DNA of 64,000 bases from Actinosynnema sp. ALI-1.44. GTDB taxonomy: Bacteria > Actinomycetota > Actinomycetes > Mycobacteriales > Pseudonocardiaceae. Position numbers and translations under genes: made by a program. The notes beneath the pieces are model-generated. The model saw nothing but the letters and a program-made list of their open reading frames with translations. It was not told the origin of the DNA and did not search any database. Where the stretch lies: contig NZ_MTQO01000054.1 in the NCBI RefSeq assembly GCF_001984155.1, positions 806,001-870,000 of the forward strand. Direction: 5' to 3'. Positions 18,427-57,943 of the stretch are shown in pieces (position 1 is the stretch's first letter; each line of letters begins with the position of its first letter).

Positions 18427-18455
18427 TGACACACGACGGGCGCCTGTCGATGCTA

Positions 18456-18471
18456 GTGAGAGCGCTCTCAC
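18456..18471. promoter_or_regulatory. Perfect 16-bp palindrome, LacI/CebR-type operator
   Basis: GTGAGAGCGCTCTCAC is a perfect inverted repeat centred on CG. Its core is one substitution per arm from the CebR operator TGGGAGCGCTCCCA known in Streptomyces. It lies 120 bp upstream of the glucanase start and 30 bp upstream of the STAND gene start, so a sugar-responsive LacI-family repressor may control either or both. Confidence 0.7.
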
Positions 18472-37508: not shown

Positions 37509-37702
37509 CTTCCGGACTCCAGCAGCCAGTGTGGCGCAAGTCCAGCCGTTCGGCCGACACCGGTTCGTGCGTCGAGTTAGCCCGCACCGAGGCCGGGTTC
37601 GGCGTCCGTGATTCGAAGAACGCCACCGGTCCGGTGCTCGCACTGACCACCGAGCAGGGACTCGCGTTCCTCCGCGCTGTCATGAGCGACAACCTCAGCT
37701 GA
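37505..37702 (+). CDS. DUF397 protein (XRE partner)
   Basis: 65 residues; its ATG overlaps the XRE gene stop. WRKSSRSADTGSCVELARTEAGFGVRDSKN...GPVLALTTEQGLAFLRAV is a textbook DUF397 sequence. DUF397 proteins act with, and in some systems antagonise, their XRE-DUF5753 partner. A frameshifted relative lies at 39211-39454. Confidence 0.92.
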   Translation: MTSGLQQPVWRKSSRSADTGSCVELARTEAGFGVRDSKNATGPVLALTTEQGLAFLRAVMSDNLS

Positions 37703-37856: not shown

Positions 37857-39080
37857 ATGGAGATCAAGGAAAAGAGACGAAGAACATCCAACCGCGGATT
37901 GCTCGCCGTTCTGGGGGCGGTCGTGGTTGCTGTTTCGCTGACCTCTGGTGCCGCCGCGGCGGAGCCGAAGAGCATCGGGCCGGTTCCCAAGAGCGGGTAT
38001 GACGGCCCGGTACCCGGGGGTTTCGCTGCCTGGGGTGACCTGTTGGCGATGCAGCAGAAACTGAACAGGGCAGCGGAGCAGATCGCCGCGGCGAACGGCG
38101 ATGGTTTCGCCGGGATCATCGCGGCACCGGAAAATCGTGAACTGCGGGTTTACTGGAAGGGTGCCACCGAAGGCAAAGTCAGCGCATTGGTGGCGAAGCT
38201 GAACCGGACCGTTCCGGTGAAGGTGTTACCCGCCGCGTACAGCCTGAAGGAACTGTCGGCGGAGTCAGCGCGGTTGATCAAACAGGCCGGTGTGAAATCC
38301 GTGGCGCCGAAGGCCGACGGCAGTGGCCTGTCGGTTGGCGTTGACCGGTCGATTCGGGCTCAGACGCTGAACAGTTCGGTGCCGATCGAGCAGACCGACG
38401 CGGCACCGGCCCCAGCCGCCTCCCGGGAGAACGACTCGCCCCCGTACTGGGGCGGCGCACGGTGGCGCAGCCCCGACGGTGGCTGTTCCACCGGGTTCGC
38501 CGTCTGGCACGGCGGCACGACGAAAATGCTGTCGGCGGGGCACTGCGGCAAAAATGGTCAAACCGCGCACGACGGTGGCGGCGACTTCATGGGTTACATC
38601 GAGCACGACGACGATCCGTGGGACACGCTGCTGATCAACACCTCTTCGGCCGGGCGCATCTACGACGGTGGCGTCGGTGTGAACGAGTTCTCCAAGCCGG
38701 TGGACCACGCGGCGGCGAACTGGGTCGGCAACTATATCTGTGTCTCCGGTTCCTACTCCGGTGTGACGTGCAACAACGTCGTTGACGAGATCAACGTAAC
38801 CATCGGTATCCCCTACACGGTCTACGGCCAGGTGCGGGCCCACCAAGTGGACCACCATGCGGCCGTCGGCAATGGCGACAGTGGCGGGCCCGCCTTCGAC
38901 CTGGTTCCGGACTGGAGCCGGGTGATCGCGAAGGGCACGCTCACCGCGATCGACCTCCATGCGGAGAAACCCTGCAACGGCGTTCCCACTGGGGGCAACC
39001 GCCGGTGCTCGTCGGTGTTCTTCTTCGCCGACATCAGCAAGACGCTGCCCCGCCTGGGCGCGTCGATCGTGACCGGCTGA
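37857..39080 (+). CDS. Secreted trypsin-like (S1) serine protease with pro-region
   Basis: 407 residues from ATG 37857 (AGAGGA upstream). A basic N-region and hydrophobic core (about 1-35, RGLLAVLGAVVVAVSLTSGAAAAE) form a signal peptide. Residues ~36-190 are a pro-domain (AAPENRELRVYWKG...). The catalytic domain has KMLSAGHC (His), DDDPWDTLLI (Asp) and VGNGDSGGPAF (Ser), and Cys pairs fitting disulphides. This order matches chymotrypsin-fold secreted proteases of actinomycetes. It stands alone as a transcription unit, with a 14-bp-arm terminator downstream. Confidence 0.92.
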   Translation: MEIKEKRRRTSNRGLLAVLGAVVVAVSLTSGAAAAEPKSIGPVPKSGYDGPVPGGFAAWGDLLAMQQKLNRAAEQIAAANGDGFAGIIAAPENRELRVYWKGATEGKVSALVAKLNRTVPVKVLPAAYSLKELSAESARLIKQAGVKSVAPKADGSGLSVGVDRSIRAQTLNSSVPIEQTDAAPAPAASRENDSPPYWGGARWRSPDGGCSTGFAVWHGGTTKMLSAGHCGKNGQTAHDGGGDFMGYIEHDDDPWDTLLINTSSAGRIYDGGVGVNEFSKPVDHAAANWVGNYICVSGSYSGVTCNNVVDEINVTIGIPYTVYGQVRAHQVDHHAAVGNGDSGGPAFDLVPDWSRVIAKGTLTAIDLHAEKPCNGVPTGGNRRCSSVFFFADISKTLPRLGASIVTG

Positions 39081-39210: not shown

Positions 39211-39454
39211 ATGACCCGAACGCTTCGCGCGACATCCACGGTGACCGCAGGCCGACACCGGTTCGTGCGTCGAGTGGGTCCGCGCCGGAGTTGGATTCGG
39301 CGTCCCGGATTCGGAGAACGCCAACGGCCAGGCACTCACCCCGACCGTCGAGCAGGGACTCGCGTTCCTACAGTCTGTCAACGACAGCATTCGGTCACCG
39401 GATGGCATCTTTGCTTCGTCGATTCCCGCCTCACGGCTCCGGCTGACATATTGA
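39211..39454 (+). pseudogene. Frameshifted DUF397 remnant
   Basis: From about 39245 the frame reads ADTGSCVEWVRAGVGFGVPDSENANGQ... TPTVEQGLAFLQS, closely matching the intact DUF397 at 37505 in protein and DNA. This frame has a TGA immediately upstream and no start codon. An ATG at 39211 in another frame reads MTRTLRATSTVTA up to the same point, so a one-base insertion near 39250 restores a single ~80-codon DUF397. It has no XRE partner. It lies in the 545-bp gap between the protease and pglW; apart from it and the terminator I see nothing coding there. 39455-39625 should contain the BREX promoter, though no clear -35/-10 pair is visible (TACGAT at 39582 is possible). Confidence 0.7.
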
Positions 39455-39625
39455 GTGTCTTCAGAAACCGCGGCAGAGGTAACGTGGCGGCCCGTCATCT
39501 CGAAATAGCGCGTGCGGGTGATCTTCCCCTGAACGAGTTGGTTCCGCCGTAGCGGGAAGTCCCGTACGGGCGAGCGACCACTACGATCACTCGTTGGTGC
39601 GCAACGACCGAGAAGGAGGGGATCG

Positions 39626-42600
39626 TTGCCGAACGGTCGACAGCCGGTGCCCAAGCCTGGCCCGCCGCCCACGGTGAAGCGGTGGTTTCAGGAACGGCCG
39701 TCGCCGTTCCCGTGGGAGCAGGACGGCCTCGACCACGTCAAACGGTTGATGCCGCAGGCTGAGCCCTATCGCGCGTGGGCCACGTTCTCTTTCACGGCGT
39801 CATCCGGCAGAGTCAACGAGTGCGACCTGCTGATCGCTGTCCCCCGTGGCCTCTACCTGGTCGAGTTGAAGGGACACCCCGGACGCGTCGTCGGCAACAG
39901 TGACACCTGGCGATTCCACGACAACACCTCAAGCCGGACCCGGACGCTGCGGAATCCACTGCACCTGACCGACCTGAAGTGCAAGGAACTGAAGACCAGG
40001 CTCGAGTGGGCGGCCAAGCAGCTGAACATCAGCTCCCACATCCCTCGGGTCGAGCCCGCGATTTTCCTGTCCGCGACCGATCTCCGTTCCCAACTGGACG
40101 CCGTCCAGCGCACCAACGTCTACGGTCGTGACGAGGTGAACAGTGGGCTGCCGTGGATCTGGCGTGATCTGCTGGCCAAACCGCAGCAACAGGGGAACCG
40201 GCGGATCACCCAGGACTTCTCCAGCCGTGACCTGCCCAGACTGCTGGCGAAGATCGGGATCCGCGCGGCCACCGCACATCTGCGGTTCGACGATGAGTGG
40301 ACCCTGTCCTCCGATGTCCTCGACGCCGGTCCCACCTGGGAAGACCGTCTCGCCGAGCGAACCGGCATAGTGCGTGAGCAGGGCCGGGTCCGGATCTACC
40401 TGACTGAGCAGCAGGCGACCGAGGAACGACGTCTGTCCGTCGAGCGGGCCGCGCGCCGCGAGTACCAGCTCCTGCAGGGCGTTGCCCACCGGGGTATCGC
40501 ACAGGCAGTGCAGATCCGTGACCACCAGGGTGGCCCGGCGATTCTGTTCCACCATCGTGAGTCGGACCTTCGGCTGGACTCGTACCTTGATGTGTTCGGC
40601 GAGCGACTGACCACCGAGACCAGGGTGGAGATGGTGCGTCAGCTGGCCGAAGCCGTGCAGTACGCCCACAGCAGATCGCTTTACCATCGGGCCCTGTCCG
40701 CACGGTCGGTCTACGTGTCGGCACGTGACGGCGGTGCCCAACCAGTGCTGCGCATCATTGACTGGCAAGCAGCCGCTCGTGACTTCGACACGACCGGTCT
40801 CACCTCGCTCGGCAACTCGTTGCTGAACGCCGAACACCTCGCCGGCTCTGTCGAGGTCTACCTTGCTCCCGAGTTCGACCAGCCTTACGCGGACCCGGTT
40901 GACCTCGACATCTTCGGACTCGGTGCGCTGGCGTACCTCATCCTGACTGGGCAGTCGCCCGCGACACAGCGCAGTGGGCTGATCGAACGGCTGACCGAAA
41001 GCCAGGGCCTGCATCCGTACGCCGTGTTGGACGGGATCTCCGACAAGCTCGACGCGCTGGTCTTCGACGCCACTCGAGCCGATGTGGCAGATCGGATGGG
41101 CTCGGCGGACGTCTTTCTGAAGCGCTTGGACAACGCCGAACGCGACGCGCTGCCGTCGGCGACAGCGGCTGTTGCCGATCCACTCACAGTGTCCGCGGGC
41201 CAACTGCTCGATTCCGAGTGGACGGTCGAACGGGTGCTGGGCACCGGAGCGACTGCTCGCGCGTTGCTGGTCACCCGCACGCTGGAGGACGACAACGGCG
41301 ATCCCCACGTCGAACGCCGGGTTCTCAAAGTCGCTCTCGACGAAGCCAAGGCGGCTCGGCTGCACGCCGAAGCACACGCATTGGAGTTGGTCGGTGGGGG
41401 CGTGGTCATCAAGCTGCTCGAACCGCCAAGGCAGTTGGCTGGTCGTACCGTGCTCGACCTCGAGTACGCGGGTGGCGCGGACCCGGAGAGCGGGACTCTG
41501 GGCGAGCTGCTGCGAGCCGAGGGCAAGCTCAGCTACCACTATCTCGAACGGTACGGGCGTGACCTGTTCACCGCGCTCGATCAGCTCGCAGGCAAAGGGG
41601 TGCGGCACCGGGACCTGAAGCCGGACAACTTCGGGGTCTGCCGGCGGGTGGACCGATCGACGCAGCTGATGCTGTTCGATTTCTCGCTCGCCGACGCACC
41701 GGAGCGGGACGTCAAAGCGGGCACGCGCGGATATATCGACCCGTTCCTGGACACCGCCCGCCGCCCGGCGTTCGACGATCACGCCGAGCGTTATGCGGCG
41801 GCAGTGACCTTGCACGAGATGGCCTCAGGGCAGCGGCCGGTGTGGGGCGACGGGATGACCGACCCGCGAATGACCACCGATGAGGCCCCCGGCCTGGCGG
41901 CCGACCTTTTCGAGCCTGCGCTGCGGGACGAGCTGATCGCGTTCTTCCTGCGCGCCTTTCACCGTGACGTGAACCATCGGTTCGACACGTTCCGGCAGAT
42001 GGAGGACGCCTGGCGGGCGGTGTTCACGGCAGCGGACGCTACGTCACCAGTCACCACGCCTGGAACAGTAGGGATCGACGAGGCAACGCTCGACGAGACT
42101 CGCGACGCACACGCAGCGGCCGCCAAGCTCGACACTCCTCTTGAGGCTGCAGGTCTGTCTCCACGGGCGGTGTCGGTCGCGCAGTCCTTCGGTGCGGCGA
42201 CGGTGGGCGAGCTGCTCAATATCCAGCGTTATCAGATTGCCAAGGCCCGTGGCGCGGGAATGGTGGTCCGCAAGGAACTCAATCGTCGGCACAAGCAGTG
42301 GACTCAGGCGTTGCTCCGTGGCACCGCATCCGAGCGACCCGCTCTGTCTGGCGAGGGGCAACAGACTGTCGACGACCTTGCCGCTCTCCTGGTGCCGGAG
42401 GTCAATCGACGGGGCTCGAGGAAAGCCGATGCGGTACGCCGCATGCTGGGTCTGCCCAGCGGGGGCGGCGTGCCACAGGCGTGGCCGACCCAGTCGGAGG
42501 TCGCTGACGAACTGGGCATCAAACAGAGTTCGGTCTCCCGGAACTACCGTGAGGCGGCAGAGGAGTGGGCAGCCAAGCCGTGGCTGGCCGACGTACGGGA

Positions 42601-43966
42601 CGATCTTGTGGCACTGGTCGCACAGGCGGGCCGGATCATGGCCGCGGGCGAGCTCGCCGATGCGGTGCGAGCCCGGTACGGCTCTGTCGAAGAAGACGCT
42701 CAGCGCGCGGCGGCGCATGCGATGGCAGTCGTGCGGGCTGCGGTGGACACAGAGGGGTGGGTCGGCACGAAGTCCGACGACCCTGATGAGCAGCCACGGC
42801 TCGCTGTTCTTCGTCGTGGCCGTCGTGTGCTCATCGCACTGGAGTCATTGGCAGGCTCAGACGATCCGAGTGCGCCCGAGCTCGCCGACTACGCCGTCGC
42901 GCTGGGCCAGCGCGCGGACGAGCTGGTGCAGACCGAACCACTGCCTGGACGTGGTGTGGTTGTCCGAGAACTGCGGTCTGTGACTTCACCGGAAGGGCTC
43001 GCTTCGCAGGCGGACACCCGTCTGGTCGAGCTCGCCGCCGAGATGTCCGCTCATGCGGCTGCGTCACCGCGGCTCGAGCTGTATCCCCGGGAACTCGACT
43101 TGGTGCGCGCGTTGCGAATCTCGCAAGCCGCCGCCGGGGTCCGGCGTGATCCCGGGATCACGATGGAAGACCTGCTGGCCAAGGTGCGCGCACGCTTCCC
43201 CGCGGTCGACTTCGGCAAGCGACTCACCCACGTGCGTCTGGAGGAAGCTCTGCACGCTGCGGGCTTCCCGTTGGAGTACGACACGTCGGCGCGTAAGTTC
43301 CGGCCACCCGCGGTGGAACTGTCCAGAGTGGCCGATTCGTCCAGCACTCTGATGAGTGGACACGGCCGTCTGCGCGCGGCTGGCATCGACCCCCGGGATG
43401 TCGTGGCGGCGAAGCTCGCCTCTGCGGTGGAGAAAGGCGGGTTCCTCGCTCTTACCCTGCGCGGAGCCAACCTGCCCGGCGCGGCGGAGGCGCTCGCGGC
43501 CAACCATCCCCTTCGTTCGGTCAACGTGGACGAGGAGTTCCTGTCGGAGTTCCAGGCCCTTGTCGCCGAGCGGGACCAGGACTGGGACAAGGTGCGAAAG
43601 CTGGATGCCCGCTTTGCCGAGACCGGCGACGTCTCCCGTGGCCTGGCGTCCTACGTGGCGACCGCGTGGGAACGGGTTCGGCACCGGCTGCTGGAGCTCG
43701 CGGGATCGGACAGTGTGCTGTTCCTGCACCACGCGAGCCTGCTCGGGCGTTACTTCGACGAAGGCGGACGCACCCTGCTGACCGAGCTCCAGAACGCGGC
43801 TCGACGACCACACGAAGCCCCGCACGGACTGTGGCTGCTGTGTCCCGCTGACTCTGCGTTGGACGCACCCCACCTGGACACCAGACTGGTCGAGGTGCTC
43901 GGTGAGGCCGAACGGGTCATCCTGAACAGCGAGTTCCTGACGACTTTGCGGGCAGGCGCGGCATGA
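39626..43966 (+). CDS. pglW: BREX type 2 protein PglW: NERD nuclease-like plus two kinase-like domains
   Basis: 1446 residues from TTG 39626, with AAGGAGGGG 6 nt upstream. Domains: NERD-type PD-(D/E)xK region (about 30-170; NECDLLIAVPRGLYLVELKG), a first kinase-like domain (about 270-505) whose HRD reads HRA and whose DFG reads DWQ, and a second kinase domain (about 525-800) with GTGATARA, VLKVAL, HRDLKPDNFGV near 660 and DFS for DFG. Next come a helix-hairpin-helix-like segment (LSPRAVSVAQSFGAATVGELLNI, ~840) and a sigma-region-4-like HTH (QSEVADELGIKQSSVSRNY, ~955). In the Streptomyces Pgl system PglW is a protein kinase required for phage resistance. First gene of the operon. Confidence 0.93.
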   Translation: MPNGRQPVPKPGPPPTVKRWFQERPSPFPWEQDGLDHVKRLMPQAEPYRAWATFSFTASSGRVNECDLLIAVPRGLYLVELKGHPGRVVGNSDTWRFHDNTSSRTRTLRNPLHLTDLKCKELKTRLEWAAKQLNISSHIPRVEPAIFLSATDLRSQLDAVQRTNVYGRDEVNSGLPWIWRDLLAKPQQQGNRRITQDFSSRDLPRLLAKIGIRAATAHLRFDDEWTLSSDVLDAGPTWEDRLAERTGIVREQGRVRIYLTEQQATEERRLSVERAARREYQLLQGVAHRGIAQAVQIRDHQGGPAILFHHRESDLRLDSYLDVFGERLTTETRVEMVRQLAEAVQYAHSRSLYHRALSARSVYVSARDGGAQPVLRIIDWQAAARDFDTTGLTSLGNSLLNAEHLAGSVEVYLAPEFDQPYADPVDLDIFGLGALAYLILTGQSPATQRSGLIERLTESQGLHPYAVLDGISDKLDALVFDATRADVADRMGSADVFLKRLDNAERDALPSATAAVADPLTVSAGQLLDSEWTVERVLGTGATARALLVTRTLEDDNGDPHVERRVLKVALDEAKAARLHAEAHALELVGGGVVIKLLEPPRQLAGRTVLDLEYAGGADPESGTLGELLRAEGKLSYHYLERYGRDLFTALDQLAGKGVRHRDLKPDNFGVCRRVDRSTQLMLFDFSLADAPERDVKAGTRGYIDPFLDTARRPAFDDHAERYAAAVTLHEMASGQRPVWGDGMTDPRMTTDEAPGLAADLFEPALRDELIAFFLRAFHRDVNHRFDTFRQMEDAWRAVFTAADATSPVTTPGTVGIDEATLDETRDAHAAAAKLDTPLEAAGLSPRAVSVAQSFGAATVGELLNIQRYQIAKARGAGMVVRKELNRRHKQWTQALLRGTASERPALSGEGQQTVDDLAALLVPEVNRRGSRKADAVRRMLGLPSGGGVPQAWPTQSEVADELGIKQSSVSRNYREAAEEWAAKPWLADVRDDLVALVAQAGRIMAAGELADAVRARYGSVEEDAQRAAAHAMAVVRAAVDTEGWVGTKSDDPDEQPRLAVLRRGRRVLIALESLAGSDDPSAPELADYAVALGQRADELVQTEPLPGRGVVVRELRSVTSPEGLASQADTRLVELAAEMSAHAAASPRLELYPRELDLVRALRISQAAAGVRRDPGITMEDLLAKVRARFPAVDFGKRLTHVRLEEALHAAGFPLEYDTSARKFRPPAVELSRVADSSSTLMSGHGRLRAAGIDPRDVVAAKLASAVEKGGFLALTLRGANLPGAAEALAANHPLRSVNVDEEFLSEFQALVAERDQDWDKVRKLDARFAETGDVSRGLASYVATAWERVRHRLLELAGSDSVLFLHHASLLGRYFDEGGRTLLTELQNAARRPHEAPHGLWLLCPADSALDAPHLDTRLVEVLGEAERVILNSEFLTTLRAGAA

Positions 43967-43992
43967 CGGATCTGTGGAGAGGGATGCGGTAG

Positions 43993-46900
43993 ATGGTGGC
44001 ACTCGATGCCAAGCTGCAGGAACTGGTGAAGGACCTTCGCAAGCAGGTCACCGTGCTCGAAGGCGACTTGCTGGCGCGCAGCGACGAGGAGCCCGAGTTC
44101 GCGAAGCAGCTACGCGCGGAGTACGACCAGGCTTTCGAGGCGAAACGCACGGCGGCGACGTACGGGTCGTGGCAGAAGGAACGCGTCACCCAGGTAGCGG
44201 CGGCCTGGATCCTGGGCATGGTGTTTGTCCGGTACTGCGAGGACAACGGCTTGATTGCGGCGCCGTTCATCGCCGGACCGGGTGAGCGGCTAGCCGACGC
44301 TGAGGAACGGCACGAGGCGTACTTCCGTGAACGCCCGCAGGACAACGACCGCGACTGGATCGTCGAGTCGTTCAACCACCTCGCGTCGGCTCACCCGACA
44401 GCAGCCGGGCTGTTCGACCGGCAGCACAACCCGCTGTGGGAGATCACGCCCTCGTTCGAGGCTGCGGCGGCGCTGCTTCAGTTCTGGCGTCGGCGTGGTG
44501 ATGACGGCGAGATTCGCTACGACTTCACCGGTTGGGACACTCGGTTTCTGGGCGACCTTTACCAGGACCTGTCCGAGGATGCGCGCAAGAAGTACGCCCT
44601 CCTGCAGACCCCGGAATTCGTCGAGGAGTTCATTCTCGATCTCACCCTGGAGCCCGCGGTTGAGGAATTCGGGTTGAAGGGCCTGCGCACGATCGACCCG
44701 GCATGTGGTTCCGGGCACTTCTTGTTGGGCATCTTCCGCCGGGTGCTGTCAAAGTGGCGGGAGACCGAACCTGGCACCGATGACTGGGAACTGATTCAAC
44801 GGACGTTGGGATCGGTGCACGGCTGCGACAAGAACCCGTTTGCCGCGTCGATCGCCCGATTCCGGATGCTTGTTGAGGTGCTCAAGGCGGCAGAAACCAC
44901 GCGGCTGGACCGTGCGCCGGAGTTCCCCATCAACATTGCGGTCGGAGACTCACTGATCCACGGCCGAGGCGCCCCAGGAATTCAGGAAGAACTGTTCGAA
45001 ACCGAGGAGGCGCATACTTATGTCACCGAGGACGTGAACGAGTATGTGCGCTCCTGTGACTTGCTCGGTCGATCCTCGTATCACGCGGTCGTCGGAAATC
45101 CGCCTTATATCACTGTGAAGGACAATCGGGAGAACGAAAACTATCGAGCCTCCTACAAGGATGTCTGCTCGGGGACGTATGCTCTGTCGGTGCCCTTTGT
45201 GAAGCGGCTGTTCGACCTCGCTATTCCTGCTTACGGATCGGATCGCAACGCAGGTCATGTCGGGCAGATCACTGCGAACTCATTCATGAAACGTGAGTTC
45301 GGCAAGAAGCTGATCGAGAACTACTTCGCCCAGAAAGTCCACCTCACGCATATCATCGACACCTCAGGCGCCTATATTCCTGGCCATGGAACGCCGACGG
45401 TGATCCTGGTCGGCCGCAATCATATTGGCCGCTCAAACGATCCGATCCGAGCAGTTCTTGGGGTACGTGGCGAGCCAAGGCAGCCCGAAATTCCTGCCGA
45501 AGGGCTGGTGTGGTCGGCCATTACAAGCCAGGTCAAAAAACCGGGAAGCGAATCCCAGTGGGTATCGGTAGACGATGTGGTTAGGGTGCAGTTTGCTGAA
45601 CACCCTTGGTCGCTGAGTGGTGGTGGTGCGGATAAAATTCTCCGCGCTTTGAATGGGGTGGCGACACGTAAACTGGCGGATAGTGTAGAGCTCATCGGCT
45701 TCTTGGCCTTGACTCGTGAGGACGATGCATATGTGTTGCCGTTAGCTGCCGCTCGCCGATTGGGGCTGATGGACGCAGTGTGCGCGTTCGGTATTGGTGC
45801 CGATGTGAGAGACTGGGTGAGCTCTGTTGGTGATTTTACGGTATTTCCCTACACCGCTGATGGTCAAAATTCTCGGCTAACTGAACAGTCTGGTCGTCAC
45901 CTATGGCCTAACCGGGTGTTGCTCCTCCGTAGGCGAGCTTTGTCCGGTTATCATAGTGACCGAGGAATTGATTGGTTTGTGTATTCAGACTTTCATCCAA
46001 ATCGATGGGCGGCTAGTCGCCTGATTGCCTTTGCTTTTGTGGCTACACATAACAATTTTGTGTTGGATCGTGGCGGAAAGGTGTTCAACCGATCTGCTCC
46101 GGTGATCAAGTTGCCGAAGGGGGCGAGTGAGGATGAGCACATGGCGTTGCTGGGGGTGCTGAACTCGTCAACGGCCTGCTTCTGGCTAAAGCAGGTGAGC
46201 CAGGGGAAGGGCGGTAGCGGGCTCGGGCGTGGCCTGCAAGACGAAGAGTGGGAAGAGCGGTACGAATTCACCGGTACAAAGCTGCAGGAGTATCCGCTTC
46301 CGGATGCGCTCCCACTTGAGTTCGGACGTGCGCTCGACTTCATGGCCCAGCGACTCGCCGCGCAGGCTCCTACAGCCATCGCGGCTGAGGCAGCTCCGAC
46401 CAGGGACCGACTTGATGCGGCGCGGGCTGACCATGAGCGGATCCGTGGGCGGATGATCGCCACACAGGAAGAGCTCGACTGGAACGTCTACCACTCCTAC
46501 AGTCTCATTGGCGACGCGGAACGAGCCCAGCTCGTGGCGAAAGATCACGAAAGCCTGCCGGAGATCAAACTGGGTGAGCGCGCCTTCGAGATCGTGCTGG
46601 CCCGGAAAGTGGTAGCGGGTGAAGCTGAGACGGCCTGGTTCGAACGACACAGGTCGACACCGATCACCGAGATCCCCGCCCACTGGCCCGGCTGGTACCG
46701 CGACATCGTCCAGGCCCGGATAGACACGATCGAGAAGCGGCGGGACATCGCGCTCATCGAACGACCGGAGTGCAAGCGACGCTGGTCATCCGAACCATGG
46801 GAGAAGAAGGAAGCCGAAGCGCTGCGGACCTGGCTCCTTGACCGTTGCGAGCAACGGGACATCTGGTTCGGGATGCGAGACGGTTTCGAGCACCCGCGCC

Positions 46901-47610
46901 CGCTGACTATCAATCAACTGGCCGACGCGTTCCGCAACGACGAAGACATGCACTCGGTAGCACAGCTCTACGCGACCGATCACCTCGGCAAACCCGACCT
47001 CACACTGGCACAGGTGCTGGACCGAGTCGTCGCTGACCAGCACGTCCCCCACCTGGCAGTCTTGCGCTACAAGGACAGCGGACTGAGTAAGCGCGCCCAG
47101 TGGGAAGAAGTCTGGGAGCAGCAGCGGGAAGAGGACCGCACCGGACAACGCCTGGACATCCCGGTACCGCCGAAGTACTCCTCAGCAGACTTCCGCAAGA
47201 CAAGCTACTGGCAGCAGCGCGGCAAGCTCGACGTGCCGAAAGAGCGGTTCATCTCCTACCCAAACGCCAACCCGGACTCCGACCCGACTCTCCTCCTCGG
47301 CTGGGCAGGCTGGGACCACAAAGACCAGGCCCAAGCTCTGGTCGACCTTGTCAACGACCGCACCACGGACGCAGGCTGGGACACGACCAGGCTCACCCCG
47401 TTGCTCGCCGGGCTGGCCGAGATAATGCCGTGGGTCAGGCAGTGGCACGGTGAAGAAGACGAGGAATGGGGCGGCGTCCCAGCCGACGAGTACCAGGCGT
47501 TCCTGGACGAGCAGCGCACCAAGCACCAGCTCACCGAGGACGACCTCAAGGCATGGCGGCCGGAACCCGCCCGGCGTGGCCGGAGCAGCGGCAAAAAGGA
47601 CGAGCAGTGA
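43993..47610 (+). CDS. pglX: BREX type 2 adenine-specific DNA methyltransferase PglX
   Basis: 1205 residues from ATG 43993, 26 bp after pglW. The gamma-class N6-adenine methyltransferase motifs are intact: [12 protein letters not shown] (AdoMet binding, ~235) and [11 protein letters not shown] (catalytic NPPY, ~370). The N-terminal ~180 residues are the BREX PglX helical region ([21 protein letters not shown]). The central part (codons for about residues 340-715) is clearly A+T-richer than the rest, about 48% G+C by hand count over 45841-46080. PglX modifies host DNA for self-recognition and is required for resistance; in Streptomyces it shows phase variation at a G tract, but no G run longer than five was noticed here. 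It overlaps pglY (GTGA). Confidence 0.95.
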
Positions 47611-50600
47611 GCGACAAGTACCTCCGCGAGGTCCTCGACCTCCCGAAATCGGTGCACGCCGGTGACTTCAAAGTCGAGCTGACCGGTGGCTTCACCGACG
47701 TCGAAGCTCGCCTGTCCGAGTACGTAGTCACCGACCAGCTGCGCGGTGCCTTCCACGACGCGCTGGATGTCGTTCGGGCGGCAACGCGCGACGGAGCGTC
47801 GCATGCCGCGTACCTGCACGGTTCGTTCGGTTCCGGTAAGAGCCACTTCCTCACTGTTCTGCACGCCGTCCTGAACGGGCACCCGGCGGCGCGTGCCAAG
47901 CCAGGGCTGCAGCCTGTGATCGCGGAGCACGACGAGTGGCTGCGCGGCAAGAAGTTCCTGATGGTGCCCTACCACCTGGTCGGCGCCAGCGACATCGACT
48001 CCGCGATCCTCGGCGGATACGTCGCGCGGGTCCGCAAGGAACACCCCGACCATCCGACTCCTCCGGTCTACAAGGCCGACGCGATGCTCGCAGACGCACG
48101 CAGACAGCGTGAATTCCTCAACGATGACAAGCAGTTCGCCGACTGGATCGGCACCAGCGCTCCGTCCACCGCGGGTGCCGGTGACGTCGACGACCTTGAC
48201 GTGATCGAAGGGGCGCAGATCTCCGCATGGACGAGCGCCGAGCTGGACCGCGCGTTCACAGCCCCTGCCGGTGATCCGGTGCGCGACGCGTTGATCTCCG
48301 CGCTGCTATCCGGCCCGATGTCGTCATACATCCGCGGTGCGACCGGTGACGCGGCGGCGTTCATCCCGCTCGAAAACGGTCTGACGGTGATCAGCCGACA
48401 CGCACGCGACCTCGGCTACGACGGGCTGATCCTGTTCCTCGACGAGCTGATCCTCTGGCTCCAGGGCAACATGACCAACCAGCAATTCGTCAACACCCAG
48501 GTCAGCAAGCTGGTCAAGCTGATCGAATCCGGTGACGCCGACCGGGTACTGCCCATCGTCTCGTTCATCTCCCGGCAGCGTGACCTGACCAAGCTGGTCG
48601 GTGAGGACGTCACCGGCTCGGAGGTGAAGAACCTCGAAGCGCAGTTGCACTACCTGGCCGAGCGATTCGACACGGTCTCGCTGGAAGATCGCAACTTGCC
48701 AGCCATCATCAAGGAACGCGTGCTCAAGCCCTTGCCCGGCGGGCGCGAGATCCTGGATCAGGCTTTTGCCGGTATCGAGTCGACAAAGGCCGCGGACCGG
48801 GACGTCCTGCTCGACGCGGGTGGTGCCACCGGGGCGGACTGGCAGGACTTCCGCGCGGTGTATCCGCTTTCGCCCGCGCTGTTGAACGTGCTGGTGGCGC
48901 TGTCCGGTGCACTGCAGCGAGAACGCACTGGCCTGAAGCTTCTGCAGGAGATGCTGTACCGGCGGCGCGCAGACATGAAGGTCGGTGAGCTGATCCCGCT
49001 CGGCGACCTATGGGACGTGCTCGCGGACGGCACAGGGGAGGCGTTCACCGACAAGCTTCGCAAGAGCGCCGAAGACGGACATCGGTTCTACGTCAAGGCA
49101 CGTGCGTACCTGCAGCAGCGTTACGGCGAAGGCAGCACCCAGTTCGTTGCCATGGACAGGTTCGTCAAGACGCTGCTACTCGCCGCGCTCGCTCCAAATG
49201 TCCCCGCGCTGGCACGGCTCACTGGCGGACGACTCGCCGCGTTGAACCATGGGTCGATCCGGTCGCGTACGGTCTCGCCCGGGTCGATGGTGGTCAGCAG
49301 GCTCCGCGACATGCAGGCCGAGTTCGGTGAACTTCGCTCAGAAGGCGACGAGGACCCGGTTTTCCGGCTTCAGCTGTCCGACTTGGACATCGAGCCTCTG
49401 CTGGACGATGTGGGGGAACAGGACACGCTCGGAGCGCGCCGGATCTGGACGAAGAAACAGCTCTGGAGCCAGCTCGGCGTGCGTGTCACCGAGGACTTCG
49501 TCTGCGAGCGCGAAATCGTGTGGAAGGGGACACGGCGTACTGCCGAGTTCGTCTTCGCCAATGTCCGTGACAGCCGGGATCTGCCGGACATGCAGTTCGC
49601 CCCGACTGTGCCTGGGCGGGTGCGGGTCATCCTGGACTATCCGTTCGACGAGGCCGACCAGACTCCGCTCAGCGATGCCGCGCGGGTGAGCAAACTGCGC
49701 AGGGAAGGCGTCAGCGCGCCGACTCTGGTGTGGATTCCGCATTTCTTCTCGCCGCAGAAGTCAGCACAGCTCGGCAGACTGCTCAAGATCCAGTATCTGC
49801 TCGAACGCGACCGGCTGGCCGACTTCGCGGGCACGATGTCCGAGGAGAACCGGGTCAAGATCAAGCATCAGCTCCAGGCGCAGCGGGACAACCTGGAGTC
49901 GCAGCTGTCCGCCGCGCTGCGCCAGCTCTATGGCATCGCGGCGGCCGAAGAGTCCACTGTGGGCAAGGAGGTCGGCGAAGACGGGCACGTTCTGTCTCTG
50001 CAGCCCGGGCACAAACCGAGGCTGGCCGGAGGCGCCGGTTTCGAGTACAACGCGCTGGCGCTGACCGACGGACTGTTCGATGTTCTGTATCCCAAGCACC
50101 CGAACTTCGATCCGAGCGGAAACCGCAAGGCCATCACGGTCGGCGATCTGCGTACTGTGCTGAGCTGGATCACCCGGGCAATGGAGGACGGGCAGCGCCG
50201 AGTCGTCGTCGACAAGACCCTGCTCCCGCTCGTCAAGCGAATCGTGCATCCGCTCGAACTGGGCGAGGTGTCCGACGGTCCACTCAACGTGTCCACCGAG
50301 TGGCGTCGGCGCATCGAGCAGGCGGCCACTCAGCGCGGAGTGACCGGCGACTACCGCGTCGAGGACATTCGCGTCTGGGTCGAAGAGCTTGGTTACACCG
50401 GGCTGGACAAGGCAGTTTCGAACCTGATCATCGCGACCTACGCGTTGCTCGCCGACCGAGCCTGGATACTGCACGGTTCGCCGCTGCGGGAGGCTCCTGA
50501 TCTGGACAAGATCGGCTCTGGCCATGCGCTGCGCGCGCAGGAACTGCCCACCGCGGACGAGTTCGCGACGGCACGCATGCGTGCCTCAGTCCTTTTCGGA

Positions 50601-51416
50601 CTGCACATTCCGGAGACGTTGTTCACCAGGAACGTAAACCGGTTGGCGGACGAGATACGTGAGAAGGCCGCGGAGTTGGAGGGCGCATGCACCGGTGTCC
50701 GGCGTGCGATGGATCGACACGGCGCGGCACTGGGCATCGCCGAGCAAACGGAGGTGCCACGCGTCACCTCGGGGCGCGATGCGGCCGACCTGCTCGCCAG
50801 GCTGACCGCAGCGCGTGACTCCACTGGGCTGGTGCAGGAGCTTGTCGCGGCCGACTACGACACGACCGACGAGGTGCTGGCCGCCACGATCAGTTCCGCT
50901 CCGGCCGTTCTCGACGCACTGGAACGGGTCGAATGGACGCTGCTCGATTCCGTACGGGCGTTCACCGGCCGCGGCGATATGGTCGGTAACCGAGCCGAAA
51001 GCCTGGTCGACGACCTGGCCGCCACAGCGGCGGCAGACCAGTTCACCCGCGATCTCGTTCCGGTGCTGGACGGTCTCGGCCGCCGGGCGGTGGCGCTGGT
51101 CAACGAAGCTGCTCGGCTGGCTGCCGTGGCTACACCGACCACACGGGAACCGGAGTCCACGACTGAGCGGGGGCCCCTGCCGAGCGCGACGGGGCAGGGC
51201 TCCACGGTGGTGGCGACCACCGCAGGGCATGGCGGCCCTGCAGGCAACGGCAGGGCAAGGATCAGCGCAAGTGCGGTTGACCAGGCGTTGGCTCGACTCA
51301 TTGCCGACATGGACGGCGAGATCCGTGCCTATGCCCAGCAACACCCTGGCACTGAATTCGAGGTGACCTGGTCAGTGGTGAGCGACGACGGTGCCGGAGA
51401 GGATACCGCCGGATGA
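47607..51416 (+). CDS. pglY: BREX type 2 ATPase PglY
   Basis: 1269 residues from GTG 47607, inside the pglX stop. The N-terminus [28 protein letters not shown] is typical. Walker [12 protein letters not shown] lies at about 73-83 and a Walker B-like [12 protein letters not shown] at about 274-285. The C-terminal half is largely helical with a Gly/Ser/Thr-rich linker near 1190-1220. Corresponds to the BrxC/PglY family of large P-loop ATPases, an essential BREX component. Its stop overlaps pglZ (ATGA). Confidence 0.94.
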
Positions 51417-54094
51417 ACGTGCCGCCGGTGGATCGCCGGATCGTCGAAGCCATGGTGGAGGACTGGCTGCCGCACGCTGGTGAACGCAGGCTCTTGCTGG
51501 TGTACGGCCGTTATGTCGACACCGTGACGGAATTTCCAGTCCTTGCCGGGGCACGGCGTCGCCGCGTTCACGTCGCGGACCAGCATTCGGTGCTCGGTCT
51601 GGTCGAGGCCTGGCAGGAGCACGAACGGCGACACGTTGACGACGAGGATCTGCTGGTCGTCACGACGACCGTGCCCGACGACCAACTCGGCTGGGATTTG
51701 CGTGCCTATGCGATCGGGCGCTCCACTCGCACGGTCGACAGGGCGAAGATCGTGGCTCAGCGATTCGGCGCGAAGGATGTTGACGCCCGCATTCGGCGGG
51801 ACACATGGCTGGTGGATGCACTCCTGGACGCCGAGCCATCCGACGGTTGGCCGCGAAACGGCTCGATCCTGACACGAGACAGCGCAGTTCGCGCGCTCAT
51901 CGGCGCCCGGCTCGGTGGTCGCGTCCCCGCTGAGGGCGCCCTGGACGCGGGCGCATTGCTTGAATGGTCCCGCGACCCCGACGGACCGAGCCGGTTCAAG
52001 TCTCTGGCGGATGCCGAGCGGGACGGTCTGGTGCAGTGGCTGGTCGACACGGTCGGTGAGGTAGCCGCTGTGGTCATGCGCCTGGTCGCCGACGGACGCG
52101 CGAGCGATGCGGTGCCGCTTGGGATCGTCGGCTCGGCCGTGACAGCTCCAGGTGCTTCCGTGGACACCGCGTTCGCCTTCGGTAGTTTGCTCGGTGGCAC
52201 CCGTGGCGAGGAGCTTCGAACCTTCACCGATGCCGTGTCCGGGGCGTTGGAACGGTGGGTGAGCGAAGCGGCGAACCGGAACGACGAAGCCGCTCGCCAT
52301 CGTGTTTTCGAGGTTCTGCGTCGCGCCGATCGGATTGCCGCCGAGGCCCACCTCACCGATGCACTCGTCGACAACCGGTTCCTGCCCTCAACTTTCATGA
52401 GTCGGCTGAGAACGCTTGCTGCCGCTCTGCCCGGCTCTTCTCGGCACGGAGACGACGATCTTGAGTCCGCCCTTTCCGCTGTTCGGGATCACGTACTCGC
52501 CAGATTGGAGAACCAGCGAGTATCCGCGGCTGAAATGGCAGTCCGGCTGGCTCGATGGTGGCGCATGCCGACGCCCGCGATCGATTCGGTTTCCGCGGGC
52601 GTGGAATGGCAGATGACGATCTGGGCCTGGGTCGACAGAGCGCTGACGACTCTGTCGGTTGGCGATCCCGAGAGCGACCCCGCCATCGGGCAGGCGTATC
52701 GCGGCTTGCACGACGCGGTGCGCGCTCGCCGAGACGAACTGGATGAGCAGTTCGCACATCGCTTGGCGAGTTGGGCCAAGCACGCGACTGCCACGAACAG
52801 CGGTGAGTGTCTACTGGTCGAACAGGTGCTGACCGAGATCGCGGTTCCGGTCGCGGGAAAGGCAGCGCCTCTGGTCGTCGTCCTGGACGGGATGAGCGCC
52901 GCGGTTGCCGTGGAGCTGGGTGAGCAGTTGACTGGTCGAGTGTGGACTGAGGTGACGCCGGTGGCTGGTCGGCGAGTTGCCGCCGTCGCAGCACTGCCTT
53001 CGGTGACCAGGGTCAGTCGTGCCAGCCTGCTCACCGGTGAGGCTCAGGCTGCGGATCAAGCCAGGGAAAAGGAAGGGTTCGCCGGCCTTTGGCGCAAACG
53101 ACGCCGTCCGGGTGCCGTGCTTTTCCACAAGGGCGACCTCACTGGCAATGCCGGTCACCGGTTGGCTGACCAGGTGGTGGCCGCGCTGTCCGAGAGCGAG
53201 ATCGTGGTCGGTGTCGTCCTCAACACGATCGACGACGCACTGGACCATGGACAGGAAGGGGACCGCGCGGGTTGGTCCCTCAACGCCGTCACCTTCTTGC
53301 CGGAGTTGCTTGACGCTGCCCGGGCATACGGGCGACCGGTGGTCCTCGTGTCCGATCATGGACATGTGTTGGACCGACCCGGCAACAGCTCGACCTCCGC
53401 GACCGGAATCGAGTCCGCTCGATGGCGAACCGGGGTTCCGGGCGCGGGTGAGATCGCAGTCACCGGTCCTCGCGCGGTATACGGCAATGGTGAACTCGTG
53501 ATGCCATGGCGTGAGGACATCCGGTATACGGCACGCAAAGCGGGCTATCACGGTGGTGCGTCACTTGCCGAGATGACCGTTCCTGTCATGGTGATTCTCC
53601 CTTCACTGGAACAACTTCCGATAGGCTGGCACGTTCTGCCCAAGGAAAATGCCGAGCCGGAATGGTGGAGTCCTCGTCCGGTACCTGTGCTGGCCGTGCC
53701 GAAGCCCGTGAAGGATCGCAAGCCCAAACCGGAAGTCGACGCTGTTCCGCTGTTCACTGTGGAGTCGCCGGGCACCTCAGCCGACTCTCTCGGAACGCAA
53801 GTGGTCGCAACAGACGTATACGGTGCGCAACGCGGCTTCGTTCGGAATCCTCCGGAACGGCCGATCGTCGCCGCGATCATCGATGCTCTGCTGGAAGCTG
53901 ATGGTGTGCTCACGCTCGCCGCAGTCGCCGCAGTGGCAGGCCGCGGCGCCCGTCGTCCCGAGTATTTCGCGGCGACGTTGCAACGGTTGCTCAACGTCGA
54001 TGGGTACCCCGTATTGTCCTTGCTGGACGGCGGCAGCCGGGTCAAGCTGGATCGGGAAGTCCTGTTGGTGCAGTTTGGAGTGCGGGCGAAATGA
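51413..54094 (+). CDS. pglZ: BREX type 2 alkaline-phosphatase-fold protein PglZ
   Basis: 893 residues from ATG 51413. The PglZ domain is in the second half: [19 protein letters not shown] (first metal aspartate, ~490), [18 protein letters not shown] (~597), and [15 protein letters not shown] (DHGH metal ligands, ~646), followed by [14 protein letters not shown]. The N-terminal ~450 residues are helical and BREX-specific. PglZ is the signature gene of BREX; in Streptomyces it is reported to counter PglX toxicity. Coupled on both sides by 4-bp overlaps. Confidence 0.95.
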
Positions 54095-55410
54095 CCGTGG
54101 TCAGCGAGGTTCGACGCCGTGAGGTGATCGACGCCCTACGGCGCGGAACCGTACCTCAGAACGGCCTGGACCTGCTTGCCGTCGGGCTCGAACGATTCGA
54201 TACGGCGATGGGCGACGACCTGGCGACTGTTGCCCGCGGTGGAGCGGCGTTCCACGCGGTGCGTGGCGAGTACGGAGCGGGCAAGACGTTTTTCGCCCGC
54301 TGGCTCGCGGAACACGCGAAACGGCGTGGTCTGGCGACTTCGGAAATCCAGATTTCAGAGACGGAAACTCCACTACACCGGTTGGAAACCGTGTACCGGC
54401 GGCTCACCGAACGGCTGGCCACGGCGACTCATCGCCCGAGCGCGCTGCGGGCCGTCGTCGACTCGTGGTTGTACACCCTGGAGGAGCAGGTCCTCGAAGC
54501 AGGGGAGGTCGAGGCTGACGACCAAGCCGGTCTGGCGGTCGCGGTGGACGCTCTGCTTGAGCAGCGACTGGCGGAAGTGGCTCGTACCACACCTGCTTTC
54601 GCCGCAGCTCTGCGCGGCTACCGGCAGGCGGTCGACGCGGGTGACAGCGCGACCGCCGAGGCGATCATCGCCTGGCTCGGTGGACAGAAATCGGTAGCGG
54701 CTTCCGCTCGACGTGCCGCAGGGGTTCGCGGGGACCTCGATCATTTCGCAGCGTTGGGCTTCCTCGAGGGATTGCTCGCCGTACTGAGAGACTGTGGTCA
54801 TCCGGGACTTCTGCTCGTACTGGACGAGACGGAAACACTCCAGCGTGTCCGCGGCGATGTTCGGGAGAAGGGACTCAACGCGCTGCGCCAACTGCTCGAC
54901 GAGATCGACGCAGGCAGGTTTCCCGGACTCTTCCTCATCCTGACAGGCACTCCCGCGTTTTTCGACGGCCAGCAAGGCGTTCAGCGACTGCCTCCCCTTG
55001 CGCAGCGACTGGCGACCGACTTCACCACCGACGCACGGTTCGACTCGCCACGAGCGGTCCAACTGCGGCTACCCGGATTCGATGTCGACCGGCTCAGCGA
55101 GCTGGGGCGGAAAGTTCGCGATCTGTACGTCGGCGCAGCGCGTCATCCGGACCGGGTCACTGCTCTGGTCGACGATTCGTACATCGACGTGCTTGCGCGA
55201 GCACTGACCGGGGAGCTCGGCGGCAGGGTCGGTGTGGCCCCGCGCATCTTCCTCCGCAAGCTGGTCGCCGACGTCCTCGACCGGGTGGACGACTTCCCTG
55301 ACTTCAATCCGCGTGAGGACTATGCTCTGACCGTGACCGCGAGCGAATTGACTGCGGGAGAGCGCGCCGTGGCCACCAGCGCGGGTGAAGTCGACCTGGA
55401 TCTGCCGTGA
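54091..55410 (+). CDS. brxD: BREX type 2 ATP-binding protein BrxD
   Basis: 439 residues from ATG 54091. Walker A GEYGAGKTFFARWLAEHA (about 58-75), Walker B LLLVLDETETLQRV (about 238-251) and GLFLILTGTPAFFDG (sensor-like, ~285) define a DUF2791-type P-loop ATPase. REVIDALRRGTVPQNGLDLLAVGLERFD is the family N-terminus. BrxD accompanies BrxHI in type 2 systems. 4-bp overlaps at both ends. Confidence 0.93.
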   Translation: MTVVSEVRRREVIDALRRGTVPQNGLDLLAVGLERFDTAMGDDLATVARGGAAFHAVRGEYGAGKTFFARWLAEHAKRRGLATSEIQISETETPLHRLETVYRRLTERLATATHRPSALRAVVDSWLYTLEEQVLEAGEVEADDQAGLAVAVDALLEQRLAEVARTTPAFAAALRGYRQAVDAGDSATAEAIIAWLGGQKSVAASARRAAGVRGDLDHFAALGFLEGLLAVLRDCGHPGLLLVLDETETLQRVRGDVREKGLNALRQLLDEIDAGRFPGLFLILTGTPAFFDGQQGVQRLPPLAQRLATDFTTDARFDSPRAVQLRLPGFDVDRLSELGRKVRDLYVGAARHPDRVTALVDDSYIDVLARALTGELGGRVGVAPRIFLRKLVADVLDRVDDFPDFNPREDYALTVTASELTAGERAVATSAGEVDLDLP

Positions 55411-57512
55411 CCGGAGCGGTCAACCGGCTGCACCCCGTCCTCGTGCATCACGTCGTCAACACCCTGGGCTGGCGGACGCTTCGCCCGCTGCAGCAGGAAG
55501 CGATCGGTCCGATCGCCGACGGCAACGATGCGTTGCTCCTCGCCCCCACCGCCGGTGGCAAGACTGAGGCGGCGTTCTTCCCTGTCCTCACCGAGATGGA
55601 GGAGCAGAAGTGGACAAGTCTGTCGGTGCTGTATGTCTGTCCACTGAAAGCGTTGCTGAACAACCTGCTTCCTCGCCTTGAGGGGTATGCCGCGTGGTTG
55701 GGGCGGCGAGTAGCACTCTGGCACGGTGACCTGACGGGATCAGCGCGACAGCGGATCCTGCGCGATTCCCCTGACGTCCTGCTGACCACGCCGGAATCGC
55801 TGGAGGCGATGCTGGTGAGCGTCAACGTGGATCACGCGCAGTTCTTGGCAGGGGTACGTGCCATCGTGGTCGACGAAGTGCACGCCTTCGCTGGAGACGA
55901 CCGCGGTTGGCATCTCCTTGCCGTCCTTGAACGACTGAGCCGGATTACCGGGCAGTCGATCCAGCGGATCGGATTGTCCGCGACAGTGGGCAATCCGCCG
56001 GAGCTGCTGGACTGGTTGCAGGGATCGGGCCGGGTGGTTCGGCCAGGGGTAGTCGTCGCACCGGGAGTCGAGAGCGTGGTCGGCATCCCGCCGCCGGGCG
56101 AGATCGAACTGGACTACGTGGGCTCGGTGGACAATGCCGCGACCGTGATCGCTGCCTTGCACCGCGGCGAGAAGCGCCTGGTGTTCTGTGACTCGCGGCA
56201 ACTGGTCGAAGAGATCGGCGCAGCCCTTCGCTTTCGCGGCGTGACTACTTTCCTATCTCATGCCTCGTTGTCGGTCGACGAACGACGCCAAGCCGAGCAG
56301 GCGTTCGCCGACGCCCGCGACTGCGTCATCGTGTCGACATCGACACTCGAGCTCGGAATCGACGTAGGTGATCTCGACCGCGTCATTCAGATCAACGCGC
56401 CCACTTCGGTGGCATCGTTTCTACAGCGCCTGGGGCGCAGTGGACGCCGCCCAGGAAGCACTCGCAACTGTCTCTTCCTGGCGATTCGTGAAGACTCGTT
56501 GCTGTGGGCCGCGGCATTGCTCGTGCTATGGGGACGAGGTTATGTCGAACCGGTCACCGCGCCGCCGGAGCCACGTCACATCGTTGCCCAGCAGATCCTC
56601 GCGTTGTGTCTGCAGGAGCGCGCGGTGGATGAGCAATCCTGGGCGCGGGCATGGAACGATCTGGCGCCCTTCGACCAGCGGGCAGAGCCGATCCTTCGGC
56701 ATTTGCTGGACAACGGGTTCATCGAACGCGACGGTCCGCACATGTTCGTCGGGCCGGAGGCCGAGCGCAGATTCGGGCATCGGCATTTCATGGACATGAC
56801 CGCGGTGTTCACCGCGCCGCCCCAGTTCACCGTGTTCGAGGGGCGGCGGGAGATCGGACGCACCGATCCCGCGCTGCTGACCGAGAAGGTGGACGGTCCC
56901 CGATTGCTGCTGCTGGGCGGCCGAAGCTGGAAGGTGACCTGGATCGACTGGAAGCGGCGGCGCTGCTTTGTCGAGTCGGCTGATTCCGGTGGCCGAGCGC
57001 GGTGGTTGACACCGGGTATTGGCGGCACAACCTTCGAGCTCGCCCGAGCTGCACGTGATGTCCTTCTTGGGGAGGACCCATCCGTTCAGTTGTCGCAGCG
57101 GGCACAGAAGGTGTTGGCTGACTTGCGAGCCGAGCGGTATCGCACCGTTCATCCTGCGGGAACTGTGATCACTCGCGACGGCGCTGACGTGCGTTGGTGG
57201 ACCTGGGCCGGGTTCAGAGCAAACGCCACGCTCGCCGCAACGCTGAACGGGCTTGTCGACGGGAAACAGCGGTTCGACGACGTATCAGTCCGGCTGAGGG
57301 ACGACTTGACTCATGAGTTGTGGCGTGCCGGCGTGCAGGAAGCACCCGACCGACTGTGCCTGCCAGAGATCGATGAGCGTGCACTGGCCGGGTTGAAGTT
57401 CTCCGAGGCCCTGCCGCCCCGCCTCGCCAACGCGACACTCGCATCGAGGCTCGCGGACCTCACCGCCGCACGGGAGCTGCTGCGACAGCGAGTGAGGTTC
57501 GTGGCGCAGTGA
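55407..57512 (+). CDS. brxHI: BREX type 2 Lhr-like DEAD/DEAH-box helicase BrxHI
   Basis: 701 residues from GTG 55407. Helicase motifs in order: Q-like LRPLQQEAI, APTAGGKTEAAF (I, ~45), CPLKALLNN (Ia), TTPESLEAML (Ib), VVDEVHAF (II, DEVH ~156), LSATVGN (III, ~191), LVFCDSRQLVEEI (IV), STSTLELGIDVGDLDRVIQINAP (V) and FLQRLGRSGRR (VI, ~340). The Lhr-like C-terminal part follows, without an extra nuclease. Last gene of the BREX operon. No clear terminator follows; 57513-57703 holds no gene I can support. Confidence 0.94.
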   Translation: MTGAVNRLHPVLVHHVVNTLGWRTLRPLQQEAIGPIADGNDALLLAPTAGGKTEAAFFPVLTEMEEQKWTSLSVLYVCPLKALLNNLLPRLEGYAAWLGRRVALWHGDLTGSARQRILRDSPDVLLTTPESLEAMLVSVNVDHAQFLAGVRAIVVDEVHAFAGDDRGWHLLAVLERLSRITGQSIQRIGLSATVGNPPELLDWLQGSGRVVRPGVVVAPGVESVVGIPPPGEIELDYVGSVDNAATVIAALHRGEKRLVFCDSRQLVEEIGAALRFRGVTTFLSHASLSVDERRQAEQAFADARDCVIVSTSTLELGIDVGDLDRVIQINAPTSVASFLQRLGRSGRRPGSTRNCLFLAIREDSLLWAAALLVLWGRGYVEPVTAPPEPRHIVAQQILALCLQERAVDEQSWARAWNDLAPFDQRAEPILRHLLDNGFIERDGPHMFVGPEAERRFGHRHFMDMTAVFTAPPQFTVFEGRREIGRTDPALLTEKVDGPRLLLLGGRSWKVTWIDWKRRRCFVESADSGGRARWLTPGIGGTTFELARAARDVLLGEDPSVQLSQRAQKVLADLRAERYRTVHPAGTVITRDGADVRWWTWAGFRANATLAATLNGLVDGKQRFDDVSVRLRDDLTHELWRAGVQEAPDRLCLPEIDERALAGLKFSEALPPRLANATLASRLADLTAARELLRQRVRFVAQ

Positions 57513-57703: not shown

Positions 57704-57943
57704 ATGCTGGGACCGATCCAAACGGCGGACAGCCGGGACCACGCGCGGGCTGTCGCAACCGAGCTGGCCATGACATACCGCCCAACGCACCCGCGGCGGT
57801 TGCAGCGCCGAACCGTGTACAGGCACAGCGAGGACGTCCTCTACGTCGTCCTCGACGGCCGGACCAAACAGCTCCACCTCCGGATCAGCGTGGTCCAGAT
57901 GGTCGCCGACCTCCACCGCGAAGGCAGGCCCGTCACCGACTGA
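57704..57943 (+). CDS. Small hypothetical protein downstream of BREX
   Basis: 79 residues from ATG 57704; a second in-frame ATG at 57770 gives 57 residues and may be the real start. The later part (YRHSEDVLYVVLDGRTKQLHLRISVVQMVADLHREGRPVTD) has strong G/C third-position bias and a compact beta-beta-alpha look. No family recognised. It lies 191 bp after brxHI on the same strand, and its end overlaps the convergent GntR gene by 11 bp. Whether it belongs to the BREX transcript is unknown. Confidence 0.5.
   Translation: MLGPIQTADSRDHARAVATELAMTYRPTHPRRLQRRTVYRHSEDVLYVVLDGRTKQLHLRISVVQMVADLHREGRPVTD

Follow-up and report, generated by a model that had tools for sequence, protein, structure and literature searches.

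An intact type 2 BREX (Pgl) operon in Actinosynnema sp. ALI-1.44 and a putative PglX target-recognition domain whose similarity does not follow the PglX backbone

The 64,000-nt stretch of Actinosynnema sp. ALI-1.44 analyzed here (hereafter the window; contig NZ_MTQO01000054.1, positions 806,001 to 870,000) carries at 39626-57512 six adjacent plus-strand genes, pglW-pglX-pglY-pglZ-brxD-brxHI, which very probably form an intact, horizontally acquired type 2 bacteriophage exclusion (BREX; phage growth limitation, Pgl) phage-defence operon. By its sequence the locus is an ordinary representative of a type that is already known. Within PglX, the similarity of the putative target-recognition domain (TRD) does not follow that of the remainder of the protein (the backbone), and we consider it likely that type 2 BREX diversifies via the exchange of TRD cassettes across actinobacterial families, with the PglX backbone, PglW, PglY, and most of PglZ and BrxD keeping a common descent. 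The features of the operon, with the profiles and motifs by which they were recognized, are as follows.

39626-43966, plus strand: pglW (NF033442, PADLOC PglW, Pfam NERD and Pkinase)
43993-47610, plus strand: pglX, predicted BREX-2 N6-adenine DNA methyltransferase (NF033451; Pfam Eco57I and DUF7008)
45613-46032, plus strand: putative TRD, PglX residues 541-680 (sequence comparison; partial structural match)
47607-51416, plus strand: pglY, BrxC-like ATPase (PADLOC BrxC/PglY; NF047891; junction sequence)
51413-54094, plus strand: pglZ, BREX-2 PglZ (NF033446, PADLOC, Pfam PglZ; VLDGMS, SDHG, GYHGG)
54091-55410, plus strand: brxD, ATPase (NF033438, Pfam BrxC_BrxD; GEYGAGKT)
55407-57512, plus strand: brxHI, helicase (PADLOC BrxHI, Pfam DEAD and Helicase_C; PTAGGKTE, DEVH, SAT, QRLGRSGR)

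A preliminary description of this DNA had claimed six full-length genes without nonsense disruption, with intact core motifs in PglX, PglY, PglZ, BrxD, and BrxHI, and had proposed profile searches as a check; all of this held, as the open reading frames (ORFs) lie where described, contain no internal stop, and match BREX families over nearly their full lengths. PglW reached 1562 bits against NF033442 (cut-off 990) and 1611 bits against PADLOC PglW, PglX 1833 bits against NF033451 (cut-off 400), and BrxD 671 bits against NF033438 (cut-off 350) and 476 bits against Pfam BrxC_BrxD. PglZ, for which the same description had named a failed family match as one refuting outcome, was recovered by NF033446 (856 bits, cut-off 200), PADLOC (904 bits), and Pfam (35.8 bits, cut-off 25). 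BrxHI was recognized by PADLOC (1091 bits, residues 4-699 of 701), and no BrxHI model was among the NCBIfam matches listed (the best 25 of 29). PglY matched PADLOC BrxC/PglY with 1472 bits (profile positions 3-1239 of 1240); what speaks against the assignment is its score of 1002 bits with NF047891, under the cut-off of 1700. Since the two other actinobacterial PglY proteins scanned score alike and also stay under this cut-off (Kutzneria sp. CA-103260, 1019 bits; Streptomyces himalayensis, 991 bits), and since the PADLOC match is nearly full length, the shortfall probably lies in the model and not in the gene.

PglZ and PglX of the BREX-2 type, a PglY/BrxC ATPase, the PglW kinase, BrxD, and BrxHI thus occur together on one strand in the order W-X-Y-Z-D-H, which is a defining trait of type 2 BREX. 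PglW combines a NERD nuclease-like domain with two kinase domains, of which the second has HRDLKPDN and DFS and the first, with HRA and DW in place of HRD and DFG, is presumably degenerate. The published family description presents the C-terminal half of PglW as DNA-binding/sensor-like. For the motif comparison, PglW was set against 52 relatives and PglX against 77, and for the genes other than pglX a relative had to be covered to at least 90% within the stretch (which left 52 for PglW, 36 for PglY, 31 for PglZ, 30 for BrxD, and 14 for BrxHI). The checked motifs are intact, and at columns at least 95% conserved in the relatives the window keeps 1138 of 1154 residues, the 16 deviations being distributed over PglW (2/186), PglX (2/283), PglY (4/148), PglZ (3/89), BrxD (1/195), and BrxHI (4/253).

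The genes are tightly packed, with a 26-nt gap between pglW and pglX (43967-43992) and 4-nt overlaps at the other four junctions (GTGA at 47607, ATGA at 51413, ATGA at 54091, and GTGA at 55407); the spacing given in the preliminary description was right, while its count of six junctions was not, six genes having five. The mechanical ORF of pglY starts at 47466, inside pglX, and we revised the likely start to the GTG at 47607 because no family match begins before residue 51 and because the resulting overlap with the pglX stop resembles the other junctions. Translation of pglW would begin at a TTG, and the preceding AAGGAGGGG (39613-39621) reads as a good ribosome-binding site. The operon is probably transcribed as one polycistronic message with coupled translation; a promoter scan counts against this in so far as it did no better than shuffled sequence (2 sites vs. 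a shuffled mean of 1.7), so that the single transcript is argued from spacing.

Acquisition from outside is suggested by the genomic setting, in which the operon is part of a segment that congeners lack.

37682-57932: accessory segment of 20,251 nt, comprising the BREX operon and one protease-like gene; the syntenic place is empty in the congeners G002 and G004

Window positions 37681 and 57933 align to positions of G002 that are 541 nt apart, with aligned flank blocks 85-93% identical, and G004 is likewise without the segment; as these congeners keep the flanks without the operon, the segment is accessory. In terms of G002, it is flanked by a DUF5753 regulator gene and by a cluster starting with a GntR-family gene. 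When eight genomes of the genus were searched with PglW, a strong match was found in three, namely the window genome, G003 (39%), and G007 (32%, decayed). In the latter (C2; L144, L031), the type 2 BREX has fallen apart, with pglX in three separate pieces and only the C-terminal part of brxHI, and the fetched stretch gave no match for PglZ or BrxD. A genus-level hotspot is not claimed, as the loci of G003 and G007 lie about 33 and 58 kb from the same helicase gene and not at this insertion point. Concerning vehicles, the window holds no tRNA gene and no Rfam match, and no integrase or transposase was detected among the 27 of 43 chosen window ORFs scanned with Pfam; none of the 20 phage records with a match covers 80% of PglX, and for plasmids the count on PglX coverage is 6 of 97.

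Scanning named genomes with PglX yielded 348 relatives that were confirmed, and the analysis used the 80 best loci among them. At least two of the six genes were seen in the fetched stretch of 72 loci, all of which have them on one strand in the order W-X-Y-Z-D-H; 24 of the 80 have all six genes, eight have pglX alone, and six have X-Y-Z-D-H without W. Where loci are incomplete, the border of the stretch or contig was reached, other genes are interposed, or the missing genes have no match within the stretch. Every gap is below 250 nt in 16 of the 24 six-gene loci; in many loci of Streptomyces, W is separated from X, and X from Y, by other genes that span kilobases. Variable accessory genes stand inside the operon in L042, L051, L053, L057, and L062 (between pglW and pglX and between pglX and pglY), and in three of these five loci the genes between pglW and pglX include one for a P-loop ATPase that is MinD/ParA-like by eye. 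On the PglX backbone tree the window falls among Pseudonocardiaceae, with Amycolatopsis and Saccharomonospora nearest (Shimodaira-Hasegawa-like approximate likelihood ratio test 93, branch not starred). Amycolatopsis sp. A133 (L032), Kutzneria sp. CA-103260 (L033), and Lentzea fradiae (L111) share with the window the six genes, their order, and the tight junctions, their PglX being 69-71% identical. Of 100 relatives' genomes searched, the window's own among them, 28 gave some PglX match, in many cases weak, and the system has been reported from 1309 taxa (PMC12839542).

The closest described system is Pgl of Streptomyces coelicolor, with which the window has the PglW, PglX, PglY, and PglZ families in common. 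In S. coelicolor the pgl genes form two operons 6 kb apart, and pglX contains a phase-variable tract of eight G (PMC4365076), whereas the window has one operon and the longest G/C run in its pglX is 5; the gene order is therefore that of type 2 BREX, as the preliminary description had it, but not exactly the arrangement of the founder locus in Streptomyces. It could be proposed that the window operon nevertheless works in the classical Pgl mode, in which a first infection runs its course but yields modified progeny phage that are blocked in the next cycle, with PglX and PglZ behaving like a toxin/antitoxin pair and with phase variation. The shared protein families fit this, as does the S. coelicolor work, which in its title calls Pgl a toxin/antitoxin system and has a heading on the lethality of a pglZ null mutation (PMC4365076). 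We hold this mode to be doubtful here, given the single operon, the absence of a G/C run of at least 8 from pglX in all 77 relatives as well, and the judgement of a 2026 study that direct evidence of phage DNA methylation during the first infection is lacking (PMC12839542). Phase variation of pglX is said to be common (PMC11341690); as a candidate for the window it was rejected, as the operon has no homopolymer of at least 7 (the longest is A6 at 45535). With type 1 BREX of E. coli HS and Salmonella, the window shares PglX/BrxX, PglZ, and a BrxC-like ATPase, and none of its six genes matched the type 1 components BrxA, BrxB, or BrxL, among the matches listed.

The behaviour of the TRD was examined in an alignment of 78 PglX proteins (3003 pairs), from which three of the 80 loci, with less than 95% of PglX, had been dropped. 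Against its ten nearest relatives, the window protein has a mean identity of 0.77 at residues 441-480 and of 0.28-0.32 at 561-680, and over all pairs the identity of residues 541-680 is nearly uncorrelated with that of the backbone (rank correlation, rho 0.05 with residues 41-300 and 0.07 with 881-1160), the two backbone blocks reaching rho 0.86 with each other as a control. Among the 21 pairs with > 90% backbone identity, TRD identity ranges from 0.25 to 0.61, and in eight pairs the DNA identity, mostly 80-97%, drops to minima of 29-39% in the TRD and then recovers. The length of the domain is almost constant (136-145 residues in the 78 proteins). The number of changes of bacterial family is 9 for the backbone tree, 11 for that of a 140-residue control block, and 38 for the TRD tree, the last of which resembles shuffled labels (mean 38.8, range 35-42); the family name was missing for 2 of the 78 rows. 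Downstream, block 681-760 is conserved yet equally unlinked to the backbone (0.03 and 0.06) and block 761-860 partly so (0.16 and 0.25), and the two are hardly linked to the TRD either (0.07 and -0.03).

The window has its own TRD in comparison with other type 2 BREX of Pseudonocardiaceae, its five nearest PglX averaging about 32% identity there. Its best TRD match among the 77 relatives is Parafrankia (L089) with 47%, while the backbone is nearest to Pseudonocardiaceae, and a search of residues 531-690 against 394 genomes of the class gave 50% as the best match outside its own genome (G376).

The assignment of residues 541-680 as a putative TRD is based on their place after the methyltransferase motifs and on a partial structural match. 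A structure was predicted for PglX residues 481-1100 from 45 of the 78 sequences (mean predicted local distance difference test score 80), and the model has a partial match to two adenine methyltransferases in DNA-bound form, CamA and M.BseCI (E about 1e-5, template modelling score about 0.33), which is consistent with a TRD in this region. The 34 Foldseek matches at E 0.001 or better comprise 33 chains of CamA and one of M.BseCI; BrxX was absent among them, a missing match being weak evidence. A sequence search with PglX returned just two adenine methyltransferase sequences at E 0.004, one of which was 7lni (CamA).

Replacement of the TRD as a module by recombination would account for these patterns, and the competing view is that the domain differs among relatives through very fast evolution in place. 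That most TRD pairs are near 0.30 identity, as under saturation, and that near-identical TRDs on distant backbones were not found among the 78 proteins would agree with the latter. Evolution in place would, however, confine similar TRDs to close backbones, and similarity hardly depends on closeness: TRD identity of at least 0.55 occurs in 58 pairs, one of the 21 close pairs and 57 of the 2982 others (a count that is by itself no proof that distant pairs share TRDs more often), and the backbone median of these 58 pairs is 0.67 vs. 0.62 for all pairs. The dip and recovery of DNA identity in the eight pairs also argues against it, as do the PglW blocks that are nearly as variable (residues 1201-1360, mean identity 0.36-0.40) and retain their phylogenetic signal (rho 0.79-0.82). 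We therefore regard evolution in place as unlikely.

Several observations nonetheless weigh against cassette exchange. Low correlations occur elsewhere in the operon (PglZ 761-800, 0.35; PglY 1161-1200, 0.47), and several BrxHI blocks are low, down to -0.05 (15 sequences). The TRD tree is poorly resolved, with 16 of 75 inner branches starred and 30 open, which alone raises the count of family changes. Some family signal is left, as 36 of 56 pairs with at least 0.55 TRD identity are between families (the family name being missing for two of the 58) vs. 2102 of 2850 for all pairs, and of the 15 pairs with the most similar TRDs, 11 stay within one family, which also favours evolution in place; the linkage between TRD and backbone is thus very weak, but not wholly absent. 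No TRD pair exceeds 0.71 identity, so that no recent donor is seen. A recent import cannot be read from base composition either: the G+C content at third codon positions is lower in the TRD than in the backbone in all 77 relatives (mean 0.57 vs. 0.85), in 26 of them by at least the margin of the window, and this candidate was rejected as a family property. Silent TRD cassettes of the shufflon kind were also rejected, as no TRD-like sequence lies outside pglX in the 80 loci and the window has no second copy better than E 0.05, the search being confined to these stretches; likewise, the gaps of the relatives hold no second pglX copy, the 80 loci giving no further pglX match.

Variability of the TRD in BREX has already been published. 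The domain is described as the most variable part of E. coli-like BrxX (PMC11842806), the divergence between E. coli and Salmonella pglX is read as variable TRDs (PMC9009780), and type 1 TRDs are stated to have diverged from those of type 2 (PMC12839542). No statement on unlinked TRD inheritance in type 2 BREX was found in the literature searched, which consisted mostly of open papers, available in part.

A third possibility, that the operon is complete yet silent or non-functional in this strain, would suit an accessory locus in a genus where G007 holds a decayed counterpart, but is very improbable in view of six genes without internal stops, the highly conserved positions retained, and the good ribosome-binding site ahead of pglW.

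Two further features of the segment lie upstream of the operon.

37857-39080: protease-like gene (GHCG, GDSGGP, and a signal peptide, by eye)
39250-39380, plus strand: fragment 80% identical to 37552-37682, upstream of pglW

Profiles of PADLOC, NCBIfam, and Pfam gave no match to the protease-like gene at E 0.001, and the gene is bracketed by the two copies of the 80% repeat. The first copy (37552-37682) is the end of a small ORF that we take from its sequence, and not from a profile, to be DUF397-like; the second may mark an insertion step. On the other side, a 79-residue ORF after brxHI (57704-57943) has weak relatives (32-41%) elsewhere in 11 of the 60 genomes searched (own included), and these occur in congeners without the operon too, so the ORF is probably not BREX-specific. 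At 12986-18471 two adjoining genes code for large proteins of the NB-ARC/TPR kind, of which one also has a BTAD regulator domain. In G003, the diverged type 2 BREX (L139) is near two genes that partly match PADLOC models of type IV restriction enzymes, and a type VII secretion-like locus (by eye), common to G003 and G007, is situated not far from it.

In the proposed mechanism, PglX would place N6-methyladenine on host DNA as a mark, at a short motif that its own TRD determines, and PglX, PglY, and PglZ, presumably as a complex, would block phage DNA without the mark, helped by the ATPase-helicase pair BrxD/BrxHI and by PglW as a kinase/NERD/DNA-binding protein; in the Pgl variant, the blocked phage DNA would be that carrying the mark from an earlier cycle. 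The locus itself is one more intact copy of a widespread defence system. If its TRD was replaced as a module, the recognition motif of the window copy would not be predictable from its nearest relatives; the expectation would then be different methylation motifs in relatives with PglX backbones > 90% identical, and a phage resistance that goes with the TRD and not with the species. Cassette exchange, if true, would mean that one locus type draws on a large pool of methylation specificities, like HsdS in type I restriction, and would help explain how type 2 BREX could stay abreast of phages while lacking the G-tract switching of S. coelicolor.

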